Source: an uncultured Lachnospiraceae bacterium (GTDB taxonomy: Bacteria > Bacillota > Clostridia > Lachnospirales > Lachnospiraceae). Taken from it: a DNA stretch of 46,432 nt. The notes beneath the pieces were generated by a model. The model did not search any database and was not told the DNA's origin. It saw nothing but the letters and a program-made list of their open reading frames with translations. The stretch lies in contig CANQRU010000030.1 of NCBI GenBank assembly GCA_947626395.1, positions 1-46,432 of the forward strand, read 5' to 3'. The number at the start of each line of letters is the position of its first letter. Within the stretch, counting starts at the first letter, position 1. The translations under genes were made by a program, and so were the position numbers. This document shows positions 115 through 35,785 of this stretch, one piece after another.

Positions 115-213
115 TGGTATAATCTCGACAGAGATTATACCCGCGCCGGTTCGGTGTCCGGACGAAAACCGTTAACTCTTACGGATGGGGGCCATGTCCT
201 TCGAAGGACATGG
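115..213 (+). promoter_or_regulatory. Repeated structured leader/promoter element, copy 1 (upstream of hflK)
   Basis: A perfect inverted repeat, GGTATAATCTC (116-126) and GAGATTATACC (131-141) around a GACA loop, contains an extended -10 (TGG then TATAAT, 118-123). A second hairpin follows, GTTCGG (149-154) and CCGGAC (158-163) around TGT. The third is the palindrome CCATGTCCTT/AAGGACATGG (192-213). Bases 115-166 match 33875-33926 at 48 of 52 positions. The first hairpin may be a DNA operator over the -10, or part of an RNA if transcription starts further upstream. No convincing -35 was seen. I do not recognise a named family. Confidence 0.7.
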
Positions 214-326: not shown

Positions 327-1376
327 ATGGAGACTTACGATCCCGATTTTATGGAAAAGCAGAAGAAACTATTAAAGACAGCGAAGCGCATGGCAGGTAT
401 CTTTATCGTGGTTGTGGTTTTTGCGGTGCTGAGTACAGGCTCCTTCTACAATATCGGGGAGCAGGAGCAGGCGGTGCTGACCACGTTCGGCGTGGCCAAG
501 AGCGTCACGGAGCCGGGACTTCATTTCAAGATACCGGTGATCCAGCGGGTGCAGAAGGTGAACACGACGATCCAGGGTTTCGCGGTTGGCTACGATCTGA
601 ACAGCGAAGAGAGCCAGGAAGAGGATTCCCTGATGATCACAAGCGATTTCAATTTTGTCAATGTGGATTTCTTCGTGGAATACAAGGTGTCAGACCCGGT
701 GAAGGCGCTCTACGCGTCCCAGGATCCTTTGCTGATCCTGCAAAATATCAGCCGGAGCTGCATCCGCGGCGTTATCGGCAGTTATGAAGTGGATTCGGTG
801 CTGACCACCGGGAAGAATGAGATCCAGAGCAAGGTGCGCGAACAGATCACGCAGAAGCTGGAGCAGCATGATATCGGCCTGCAGGTGATCAATGTGACGA
901 TCCAGGATTCGGAACCGCCAACCACGGAAGTCATGGAAGCGTTCAAGGCGGTGGAGACGGCGCGCCAGGGCAAGGAGACGGCCATCAACGACGCCAACAA
1001 GTACCGCAACGAGAAGCTGCCGGAGGCCGAGGCGCAGATCGACAAGATCATGCAGGAAGCTGAGGCCCAGAAGACGGAGCGGATCAATGAGGCGAATGCG
1101 GAAGTCGCCAAATTCAACGCCATGTACGAGGAATACGCGAAGAACCCGGAGGTGACCCGCCGAAGGATGTTCTACGAGACCATGGAGGATGTGCTGCCCA
1201 GGATGAAGGTCATTATCGACGGAACGGACAGTACGGAGACGATCCTGCCGCTCGACAGCTTCACGGCGACGGCGGAGGGCGCAGGCGGCGGTAACGCGGG
1301 AGCAGGCAGTGCAGGCAGCGGAAATGGAACCGCCGCCGGAAATAACGCGGTCGGAGCCGCCGATGCGGCAGAGTAG
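327..1376 (+). CDS. hflK: HflK-like SPFH/band-7 membrane protein
   Basis: This 349-residue protein has one N-terminal membrane segment (about residues 21-42) and then a band-7/SPFH domain beginning with the family-like stretch IGEQEQAVLTTFG. A long charged coiled coil follows (about 205-265, rich in E, A, K and Q). In the HflK/HflC family such proteins form a membrane complex that modulates the FtsH protease. No ftsH is in this window. The last 35 residues are a low-complexity Gly/Ala/Asn tail, reminiscent of the disordered tail of HflK. The start has AAAGGTGAAAAGGT upstream. It is first in an operon with a small membrane protein and hflC, behind the structured leader. The HflK rather than HflC label rests on gene order and length. 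Confidence 0.88.
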   Translation: METYDPDFMEKQKKLLKTAKRMAGIFIVVVVFAVLSTGSFYNIGEQEQAVLTTFGVAKSVTEPGLHFKIPVIQRVQKVNTTIQGFAVGYDLNSEESQEEDSLMITSDFNFVNVDFFVEYKVSDPVKALYASQDPLLILQNISRSCIRGVIGSYEVDSVLTTGKNEIQSKVREQITQKLEQHDIGLQVINVTIQDSEPPTTEVMEAFKAVETARQGKETAINDANKYRNEKLPEAEAQIDKIMQEAEAQKTERINEANAEVAKFNAMYEEYAKNPEVTRRRMFYETMEDVLPRMKVIIDGTDSTETILPLDSFTATAEGAGGGNAGAGSAGSGNGTAAGNNAVGAADAAE

Positions 1377-33874: not shown

Positions 33875-33988
33875 TGATATAATCTCGATAGAGATTATAT
33901 CCGCGCCGGTTCGGTGTCCGAACGAAGAGAGGACAAAACACCGAACCGAACCGAGCGCATCCCCCGGAGGGGCATGTCCGGAGGACAT
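33875..33988 (+). promoter_or_regulatory. Repeated structured leader/promoter element, copy 2 (upstream of the sensor kinase)
   Basis: GATATAATCTC (33876-33886) pairs with GAGATTATATC (33891-33901) around GATA. An extended -10, TGA then TATAAT (33878-33883), lies inside it. GTTCGG (33909-33914) pairs with CCGAAC (33918-33923). Alternatively CGGTTCGGTGT (33907-33917) pairs with ACACCGAACCG (33938-33948), which excludes the previous hairpin. CCCC/GGGG (33961-33972) and ATGTCC/GGACAT (33974-33988) follow. The last overlaps the GGAGG (33980-33984) used by the kinase gene. The element shares 48 of 52 bases with 115-166. Confidence 0.72.
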
Positions 33989-33994
33989 AAACTG

Positions 33995-35785
33995 ATGTCG
34001 ATTTTTTCTGTTATGGAGAGATATATGAAAAAGAATACAGGAAGCAGGAATATATTCAGTTCTATTCAGACGAAGTTTTTTGCCATCAGCCTGGTTATCG
34101 CGCTTGGTATCACATTTGTATCCCTGTTGATTTCCTATTATGCAGAAATGGATACGATTAAGCGGACAACGGAAAGCTACCTGACCCAGTATCTTTATTT
34201 TGCAGATGATTCTTTTCAGACCATGCTTAACGAAGCAAAACAGGTATCGCTGACAATAGCTGCTGAAAAGCAGGTATTGTCCTCACAGCTCAAAATAAGA
34301 GGTTCGACGGCTTCTTATGAGAATTACCGGAACAGAAAACAGATCAAGCGATTTCTTGGGAACCTTATTAATCAAAGACCCTATATCGAGGATATTATTC
34401 TGGTGTCATGGGACAGGATTGTTTATCAGGCCAGAGATAATCTTATTATAAAGCAGGATCTGGAAACACCGATCATGGAAAGGGCGCTGGAACTGAAGAG
34501 AACGGAAATTATATATGACGGTGAAAAAGAAACTCTTTTGTGTACGCCGATTCAGATTGATCGGGAACGTAAAATTACATGCATCGTCAAGATGAACTAT
34601 GAGTCGCTGGTAGAAATCTATCAGGTGTCTCCGCTTGATTCCATGAACATTTATGTAGTCGATGCTGAAAAGAACCTGTTCTATGCGGATGGGGGTCTTA
34701 ACGGGCGGGAGAAGGAGCTGCTGGAGGAAGTGGAAGGAAGCGGCAGGAATGCCGGATATATCAGCTTCTGCGATAAACGGGTCTATTTTGTCTGCTTTGA
34801 GTCAGAGGTAAGCGCTCTTAAAACGATTGCGGTGATTCCTGATGATGTCCTTTCAGCGGATGCGGTGAGAATGAGAAAACGTTTCCTGCTGATTGGCGTA
34901 TTCGCGGTATTTCTTGCCTCATTCGCGACGATCTGCTTTTCCAGGCGTCTGTGCAGCAGCCTGCGAAAATTGACGGTTTGCATCGATCGGATCAGCGCCG
35001 GTGATCTTTACGTCAGGGCCGATGTTGCCGGAACGGATGAAATCGGAAAGCTTTCCGTGACCTTTAATTCCATGATGGATCAGATTCGTTTCTTAATGGA
35101 TGAAATTGCTGTCAAAGAGCGGCTTAAACACGAAGCGCAGCAGAGCGTGCTTGCGGCGCAGATCGAGCCGCACTTTCTTTATAATACGATAGACAGCATA
35201 TATTATGTGGCCCATATGAAGGGGGAGAAAGAAATAGAGGAAGTAGCCATGGCACTGTCCGAGCTTTACAGAAGCGTTCTGGGCAATCAGAATATCTTCA
35301 TTTCTCTGTGGGAAGAAAGAGAATATGTGGAGAATTATTTGAAAATTGAACGGTTTAAATACCGGGAGAACTTTCACCTGCGCTGGGAAGTCGACGAAGA
35401 GCTTTGGACATATCGAATTCCTAAGCTGCTGCTGCAGCCGATCGTAGAAAATGCTTTGATCCATGGAATCTCAGATATGGGCGAAGATGGTATGATTCAG
35501 ATAAAGGCGTACGAAGAGCGGGAATTTGTAATCATACAGATTCTTGATAATGGGAAAGGAATGGATGAGGAACAGATACAAAAGCTGATGGCTGCGGGGG
35601 ATCAGAAGGAAAAGTTCGGGTTTCGTAGAGTGGGCATTTCCAATGTGTTCAGCCGGATCAGGCTGATCTACGGAGAACAGTATTCGGGAACGATTACCAG
35701 CTGTGTTAATATGTTTACATGTGTAGAGCTGCGGCTGCCAAAAGACGGAGGAGAAGATGAAATATTCCGTATTGATCGTCGATGA
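33995..35785 (+). CDS. YesM-type sensor histidine kinase
   Basis: The product is 596 residues. A first membrane segment (about 28-50) is followed by an extracellular sensor region (about 51-290), a second segment (about 290-310, LLIGVFAVFLASFATICF) and a HAMP linker. The His_kinase/PF06580 region has EPHFLYNTIDS with the phospho-accepting His at about 393. The ATPase domain has ENALIHGIS and ILDNGKGMDEEQ. This is the LytS/YesM class that controls carbohydrate transporters. GGAGG (33980-33984) serves the start at 33995 and lies in a hairpin; an ATG at 34025 is the alternative. The stop overlaps the response regulator start by 29 bases. Confidence 0.92.
   Translation: MSIFSVMERYMKKNTGSRNIFSSIQTKFFAISLVIALGITFVSLLISYYAEMDTIKRTTESYLTQYLYFADDSFQTMLNEAKQVSLTIAAEKQVLSSQLKIRGSTASYENYRNRKQIKRFLGNLINQRPYIEDIILVSWDRIVYQARDNLIIKQDLETPIMERALELKRTEIIYDGEKETLLCTPIQIDRERKITCIVKMNYESLVEIYQVSPLDSMNIYVVDAEKNLFYADGGLNGREKELLEEVEGSGRNAGYISFCDKRVYFVCFESEVSALKTIAVIPDDVLSADAVRMRKRFLLIGVFAVFLASFATICFSRRLCSSLRKLTVCIDRISAGDLYVRADVAGTDEIGKLSVTFNSMMDQIRFLMDEIAVKERLKHEAQQSVLAAQIEPHFLYNTIDSIYYVAHMKGEKEIEEVAMALSELYRSVLGNQNIFISLWEEREYVENYLKIERFKYRENFHLRWEVDEELWTYRIPKLLLQPIVENALIHGISDMGEDGMIQIKAYEEREFVIIQILDNGKGMDEEQIQKLMAAGDQKEKFGFRRVGISNVFSRIRLIYGEQYSGTITSCVNMFTCVELRLPKDGGEDEIFRIDRR

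Follow-up and report, generated by a model that had tools for sequence, protein, structure and literature searches.

Two stretches of the window, by which the whole 46,432-nucleotide stretch of DNA analysed here is meant, match the left-hand portion of a repeat that is dispersed in gut Lachnospiraceae, is about 113 bp long and has four hairpins. This repeat is best read, with a probability of roughly 70%, as a non-autonomous mobile element that inserts within the -10 hexamers of existing sigma-A promoters and regenerates them. Its hallmark is its place inside the -10, with both halves of the hexamer restored. Insertion would occur in the sense direction, between TATA and the last two bases of the -10: the left end would bring AT, turning host TG.TATA into TG.TATAAT, and the right end would bring TGGTATA, which the host's leftover AT or CT would complete to a -10 again. 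The promoter sequence would outlive the insertion, the repeat would serve as a structured 5' leader, and the -10 on the right would offer a fresh target from which head-to-tail stacks could be built. The -10 boxes at both junctions are predicted promoters, read from the sequence.

The two copies in the window

Positions 115-166 and 33875-33926 (forward strand) are identical at 48 of 52 positions by direct reading, as a previous sequence-only reading had reported, and the differences lie at 117/33877 (G/A), 129/33889 (C/T), 140/33900 (C/T) and 161/33921 (G/A). The 49-bp match between the stretches (E = 5.2e-15 against the whole genome) is far beyond chance. Copy 1 (116-166, plus strand) is the left half of a repeat whose right half is absent or decayed, BLAST covering query positions 1-50 only. 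Its left junction, in the hflK promoter, is the extended -10 TGGTATAAT (115-123, plus strand, read directly), and the relatives L272, L276 and L277 have TGGTATGAT at the matching place. Hairpin H1 of this copy (116-141, plus strand; folding and family alignment) has 11 bp and a GACA loop. The extended -10 was rightly placed within the first hairpin; positions 117 and 140 both lie in its stem as the compensatory G-C to A-T swap that had been described, and 129 falls in the four-nucleotide loop, also as described. The downstream gene (327-1376, plus strand) encodes an SPFH/Band 7, HflK-like protein (PF01145, E = 2.4e-29). Its leader (167-326) holds an additional hairpin, CCATGTCCTTCGAAGGACATGG, similar to H4 and with comparable hairpins in L271 and L273; judged by its sequence, it may be what is left of the right half from an older copy.

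Copy 2 (33876-33988, plus strand; direct reading, BLAST, covariance model) is nearly full length, with the terminal GGTATA lost or mutated and AAACTG following GGACAT. The covariance model matches it at 33876-33994 with 104.9 bits (E = 1.5e-19), copy 2 being itself one of the model's 38 rows. Its left junction, in the sensor-kinase promoter, is the extended -10 TGATATAAT (33875-33883, plus strand, read directly). All its hairpins are on the plus strand: H1 (33876-33901; direct reading and family alignment) carries the compensatory A-T pair; H2 (33903-33958; folding and family alignment) is formed by GCGCCGGTTCGG...CCGAACCGAGCGC with an inner GTCC/GGAC hairpin and one unpaired stem base, A here and T in most of the family; H3 (33962-33971) reads CCC-CGGA-GGG and H4 (33973-33988) CATGTCC-GGA-GGACAT, both by family alignment. 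The gene downstream (34025-35785, plus strand) encodes a HAMP/His_kinase sensor kinase (PF06580, E = 2.1e-20; PF00672, PF02518).

The statement that all four differences preserve pairing stands for the 117/140 swap and falls for position 161, which had been thought to turn a U.G into a U-A pair in a second hairpin. That local hairpin, GTTCGG/CCGAAC, is without family support (82.9% paired against 82.8% in shuffles, and 0 pairs in which both sides changed); the partner of GGTTCG in full-length copies is a distal CGAACC, an arm missing from the truncated copy 1. The element had also been taken for a two-copy leader, which is ruled out by the copy counts in its own genome, where BLAST with the repeat gives 17 full or partial matches at E<1e-4, and in relatives. 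Since these two statements fail, the earlier observation is confirmed in part. Its interpretation is partly supported.

Copy number and distribution

One head-to-tail pair in the own genome lies 113 bp apart with GGTATA common to both copies; elsewhere there are stacks of two or three copies, and near-identical copies occur at many places within one genome. The repeat was found in 18 of 61 genomes searched, namely 17 of the 26 of the genus (own genome counted) and one weak match outside. A 23-base exact pattern from the conserved right half occurs in 91 stretches of named genomes, at least two of which (L096, L162) hold the 23 bases alone in another context; among the matches listed are mostly Lachnospiraceae bacteria and Hungatella (including H. 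effluvii), with some Candidatus genera and some labelled 'uncultured bacterium', and [Clostridium] asparagiforme DSM 15981 has three tandem copies. The covariance-model search that the sequence-only reading had suggested, made with a model of 38 copies on a sample of nearly one genome per genus and with scoring limited to 12 candidates in each genome, gave matches in 53 of 299 family genomes (52 of 298 genera). None of the outcomes named beforehand as contrary, that is no more copies, no covariation, disregard of gene starts or an Rfam match, occurred. The genomes sampled are species representatives, among which no movement between strains was observed.

Among the 28 family loci inspected are short elements, about 75 bp long, and others whose terminal hairpins differ. 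At the level of the order, 10 of 295 genomes match, six from family f11 and one from f17, and in the seven f11/f17 loci inspected the terminal hairpins are different ones, set around a core that is the same or similar. The core hairpin (GYGCCG...CGTGYGCATCCNCCGGAGG) recurs in other genera, and in another family of the order, flanked there by different terminal hairpins, so that, on a more tentative reading, one machinery may serve several target classes. Examples are L305, L313, L319, L322-L324 and L326-L328, many with AGTAAACGAC...GTCGTTTACT; most of these loci have TATA or TTAT at the ends of the element. A phage-borne repeat was considered and rejected, as two exact patterns gave 0 stretches in viral contigs; a known RNA family was also rejected, the window with both its copies giving 0 Rfam matches at gathering score.

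Proposed insertion within -10 hexamers

The copies lie inside sigma-A -10 hexamers, with TATA on one side and AT or CT on the other. By its sequence, the promoter of the gene read as holB is the clean case of an empty and a filled site: it is empty, with ATTATGATATACTGTCC (in longer form ATTATGATATACTGTCCAC), in L243, L244 and L245, and filled in L241, which reads ATTATGTTATAAT-element-GGACATGGTATACTGTCC (longer form ATTATGTTATAATCTCG...GGACATGGTATACTGTCCAC). At the same promoter, L240 has the element and a partial second copy, L247 the element and another repeat, and L242 the left hairpin only, and in L246 and L254 a sequence like the other repeat of L247 stands straight after the same -10. 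Upstream of the gene read as dnaE, TATACT is present in all three loci compared: the right end in L213, whose left side lies beyond the contig end, is TGTTATACT, and L214 and L215, without the element, read TGGTATACTT. The gene names holB, mutL, dnaE and pyrH used here for genes downstream of copies are presumed, having been assigned by reading.

Comparable empty and filled sites among the examined loci concern three genes only, holB, mutL and hflK. The mutL site was set aside as an empty-site case, since the element comes right after mutS, no promoter is recognisable in the relatives and about 75 bp differ. The hflK site was downgraded as a clean case, as relatives may hold right-half remnants. 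In L132, 17 bp separate TTGCTA from the left TATAAT downstream of it, below a LexA-like box, and the orthologous region L167 (flanks 75-77% identical) reads TTGCAT-17-TATCCT with no element. The repeat of L132 (1104-1222) stands before a glycosylase-like gene, by reading, in a promoter whose box, CGAACAAATGTTCG, we take to be LexA-like. Another copy (L110, 7504-7622) is immediately upstream of what is presumably an RNase P RNA gene.

A regular expression found 93 copies in the examined loci, of which 72 are first in their array with enough sequence upstream and 68 are non-redundant. As the copy finder demanded G.TA.AAT on the left and TA.A on the right, those letters follow from the search itself; it left free the -35, the upstream TAT and the two bases past the right end. 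Over the 68 left junctions, the match to TTGACA peaks at a spacing of exactly 17 bp with a score of 2.69, against 1.16-1.97 at the other spacings from 8 to 39 and against a mean of 1.63 (sd 0.13, maximum 2.15) in 3000 shuffles, i.e., about 8 sd above. At least four matches to TTGACA at a spacing of 15-19 are present at 33 of the 68 junctions, compared with 7-19 of 68 in control windows. The host bases directly before G.TATAAT are T (44/68), A (58/68) and T (64/68). At the right end, [AC]T comes next in 43 of 49 last-in-array copies, and in 46 of the 49 the hexamer completed by host bases matches TATAAT at five or six positions, a count that omits ends followed by element-like starts and may thereby lose some true ends. 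With ORFs called by a simple script, a start with a Shine-Dalgarno sequence lies within 350 nt downstream in the sense direction at 49 of the 61 testable sites among the 68, at a median distance of 70 nt; in a mirror control the count is 24 of 55.

A promoter-operator cassette moved as a unit to unrelated operons, as had been suggested, is not supported by these sites. The -10 is present without the repeat at holB and dnaE and the -35 belongs to the host over the 68 sites; therefore the repeat came to the promoter, and not the other way round. The sequences show the precise placement at holB, the spacing to the -35 and the rebuilt boxes over many sites, the stacking and the conservation of hairpins on one strand; the repeat would have moved into these sites.

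Hairpins, covariation and alternative explanations

The element consists of H1, which contains TGGTATAAT, H2 with one unpaired stem base and the inner hairpin, H3, H4 and then GGTATA. It folds at -58.9 kcal/mol as RNA (z -7.3) and has a z of -8.0 as DNA. Over 38 distinct copies, 97.8% of cells are paired compared with 92.2 in shuffles, 12 pairs are changed on both sides compared with 6.5 in shuffles and 2-6 in slid versions, and the covariation score is 0.191 compared with 0.085, a value that 0 of 500 shuffles reach, the structure having been derived from the alignment on which it was tested and the shuffles not preserving relatedness. Less striking is the number of additional pair types (8 of 500 shuffles). 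Covariation in the family alignment bears out the selection on structure suggested earlier.

When sequences, not events, are counted, G.T mismatches exceed A.C mismatches by 31 to 8 overall and by 27 to 5 outside H1, with 4 to 3 within H1, which suggests folding of one strand, with H1 perhaps at work mainly in DNA. The pentamer CGGAG is found in H3 of 35 of the 38 copies, where the triloop register was set by reading and the alignment model has a four-nucleotide loop. A C-GNA-G loop closes H4 in 25 of 38, lengthened stems counted. GNA loops are known from stable DNA mini-hairpins. Loops of this kind occur in DNA mini-hairpins of extraordinary stability, d(GCGAAGC) among them, according to the part of the source consulted (cited in PMC10527192). 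The loops of H3 and H4 thus lean towards single-stranded DNA, without proving it, and copies may move as single-stranded, hairpin-bearing DNA.

One alternative is a regulatory RNA leader, kept as a transcript of H2-H4 that controls or stabilises the downstream mRNA, its mobility being incidental. The sense placement upstream of genes (49/61) and the covariation would agree with such a role, and an excess of G.T outside H1 and not within it fits a start of transcription inside H1. This explanation is nevertheless improbable, as no theme unites the genes downstream (a Band 7 protein and a sensor kinase according to Pfam; mutL, dnaE, holB, pyrH and RNase P RNA by reading), related species do without the repeat at the same gene, and copies are stacked or near-identical at many places in one genome. 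A classical MITE with terminal inverted repeats, belonging to a DDE-transposase family, would have the size, copy number and non-coding nature seen here, and TATA on both sides could be its 4-bp target duplication; it is quite unlikely, given that the ends, compared by eye, are not inverted copies (TATAATCTC... against TATACCATGTCC...) and that each end is a hairpin of its own. Least probable is a palindromic operator, in which a DNA-binding protein would read H1, a near-perfect 26-bp palindrome over the -10 with compensatory pairs and with no excess of G.T over A.C, as double-stranded DNA would give, and the repeat would build a regulon: the H1 arms vary by lineage (CTC/GAG, GTC/GAC, ATC/GAT), the conserved H2 and H4 are left unaccounted for and the holB promoter exists without the repeat.

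For a mobile repeat that rebuilds -10 boxes, the right arm of H1 (ATTATACC) may be what guides it to TGGTATAAT. More tentatively, a mobile DNA spread through the family could land on the single-stranded -10 of the open complex, by pairing of a hairpin arm with TGNTATAAT, and leave a consensus -10 at both junctions, as a promoter-preserving parasite. Were the reading as a mobile repeat that rebuilds -10 boxes true, a specific promoter hexamer would be the insertion point of an element that carries both missing halves, and entry into housekeeping promoters (of genes read as dnaE, holB and hflK) would leave a consensus -10. The target choice of a mobile element would be tied directly to promoter recognition, a group of hairpin leaders that lack annotation in gut Lachnospiraceae would be accounted for, and a testable case of -10 box remodelling in evolution would be at hand.

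Comparison with known systems

The bcr1 repeat is about 150 bp long, has mobile-element character and a conserved structure, and occurs in a Firmicute; it is like the present repeat in these respects and differs in sequence, and we know of no -10 target for it. It is named as a repeat of the Bacillus cereus group in the parts seen of two papers (PMC3733652, PMC2267715). The pneumococcal BOX, RUP and SPRITE are, in the sections of the source seen, small dispersed repeats near genes that are predicted to fold when transcribed, BOX being built of modules, among them boxB units whose number in tandem varies; they are similarly small, dispersed and foldable, but have other sequences, belong to another taxon and have no -10 target described there (PMC3049150). 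Sigma-A promoter specificity is shared with TnGBS, ISLre2 and ISKra4 (p-MULT); as far as the excerpt goes, TnGBS and its relatives have a DDE transposase and inverted repeats, and their insertion point is upstream of the -35 at a distance of 15-17 bp (PMC3942029), whereas the junction here is downstream of the -35, inside the -10. The parts seen of open-licence papers found by a literature search hold no -10-splitting repeat in Lachnospiraceae.

A further likeness is to single-strand elements. In REP with TnpA-REP (RAYT) and in IS200/IS605, as the portions seen of two papers describe, one-strand hairpins replace inverted repeats, left-flanking and right-terminal tetranucleotides are set by pairing with a guide of the element, and T17 of IS608 is an unpaired T in a hairpin stem (PMC6006769, PMC8266576). 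To the extent that these sources allow, the repeat resembles them in its one-strand hairpins, unpaired stem T and many intergenic copies, and perhaps in its TATA junctions, and differs in its promoter -10 target, its unit of four hairpins, its guide-like sequence, which would be the hairpin arm itself, and the lack of association with Y1. There are hairpins at both ends and, by eye, no terminal inverted repeats such as a DDE MITE would have. TATA on both sides at holB fits a fixed left target with a right tetranucleotide and no further duplication, and equally a 4-bp duplication. As regards a GTAG-type tetranucleotide on the 5' side of the REP hairpin, CGGAG precedes H4, though as the H3 loop region.

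The Y1 transposase (PF01797) occurs in 10 of the 26 genomes of the genus, which comprise 6 of the 17 that carry the repeat and 4 of the 9 that lack it, and shows no association. It is present in the own genome and in the copy-rich G012, and absent from the copy-rich G004, G009, G013, G014, G018 and G022 (80-93% complete). The IS200/IS605 enzyme of the genus was accordingly rejected as the cognate one, as it occurs in some genomes and does not track the repeat, and because this test failed the repeat is not assigned to IS200/IS605. A Y1 enzyme that acted in the past would be compatible with the distribution. In its behaviour the repeat is like a mobile element of hairpin-bearing single-stranded DNA whose junction is the four bases TATA.

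Other sequences at the same junctions

A second repeat (ACGAGGAAAGCACCGATGGCGC... or similar) adjoins the same -10 junctions in L125, L151, L157, L246 and L254, either following the element or standing where it would be, and therefore more than one repeat family uses one insertion point. In L104, L109, L143 and L182, a third common sequence, ending in CTAGCCGCCGCGCTAGCGGCTTGGTACAAT, stands directly upstream of the element.
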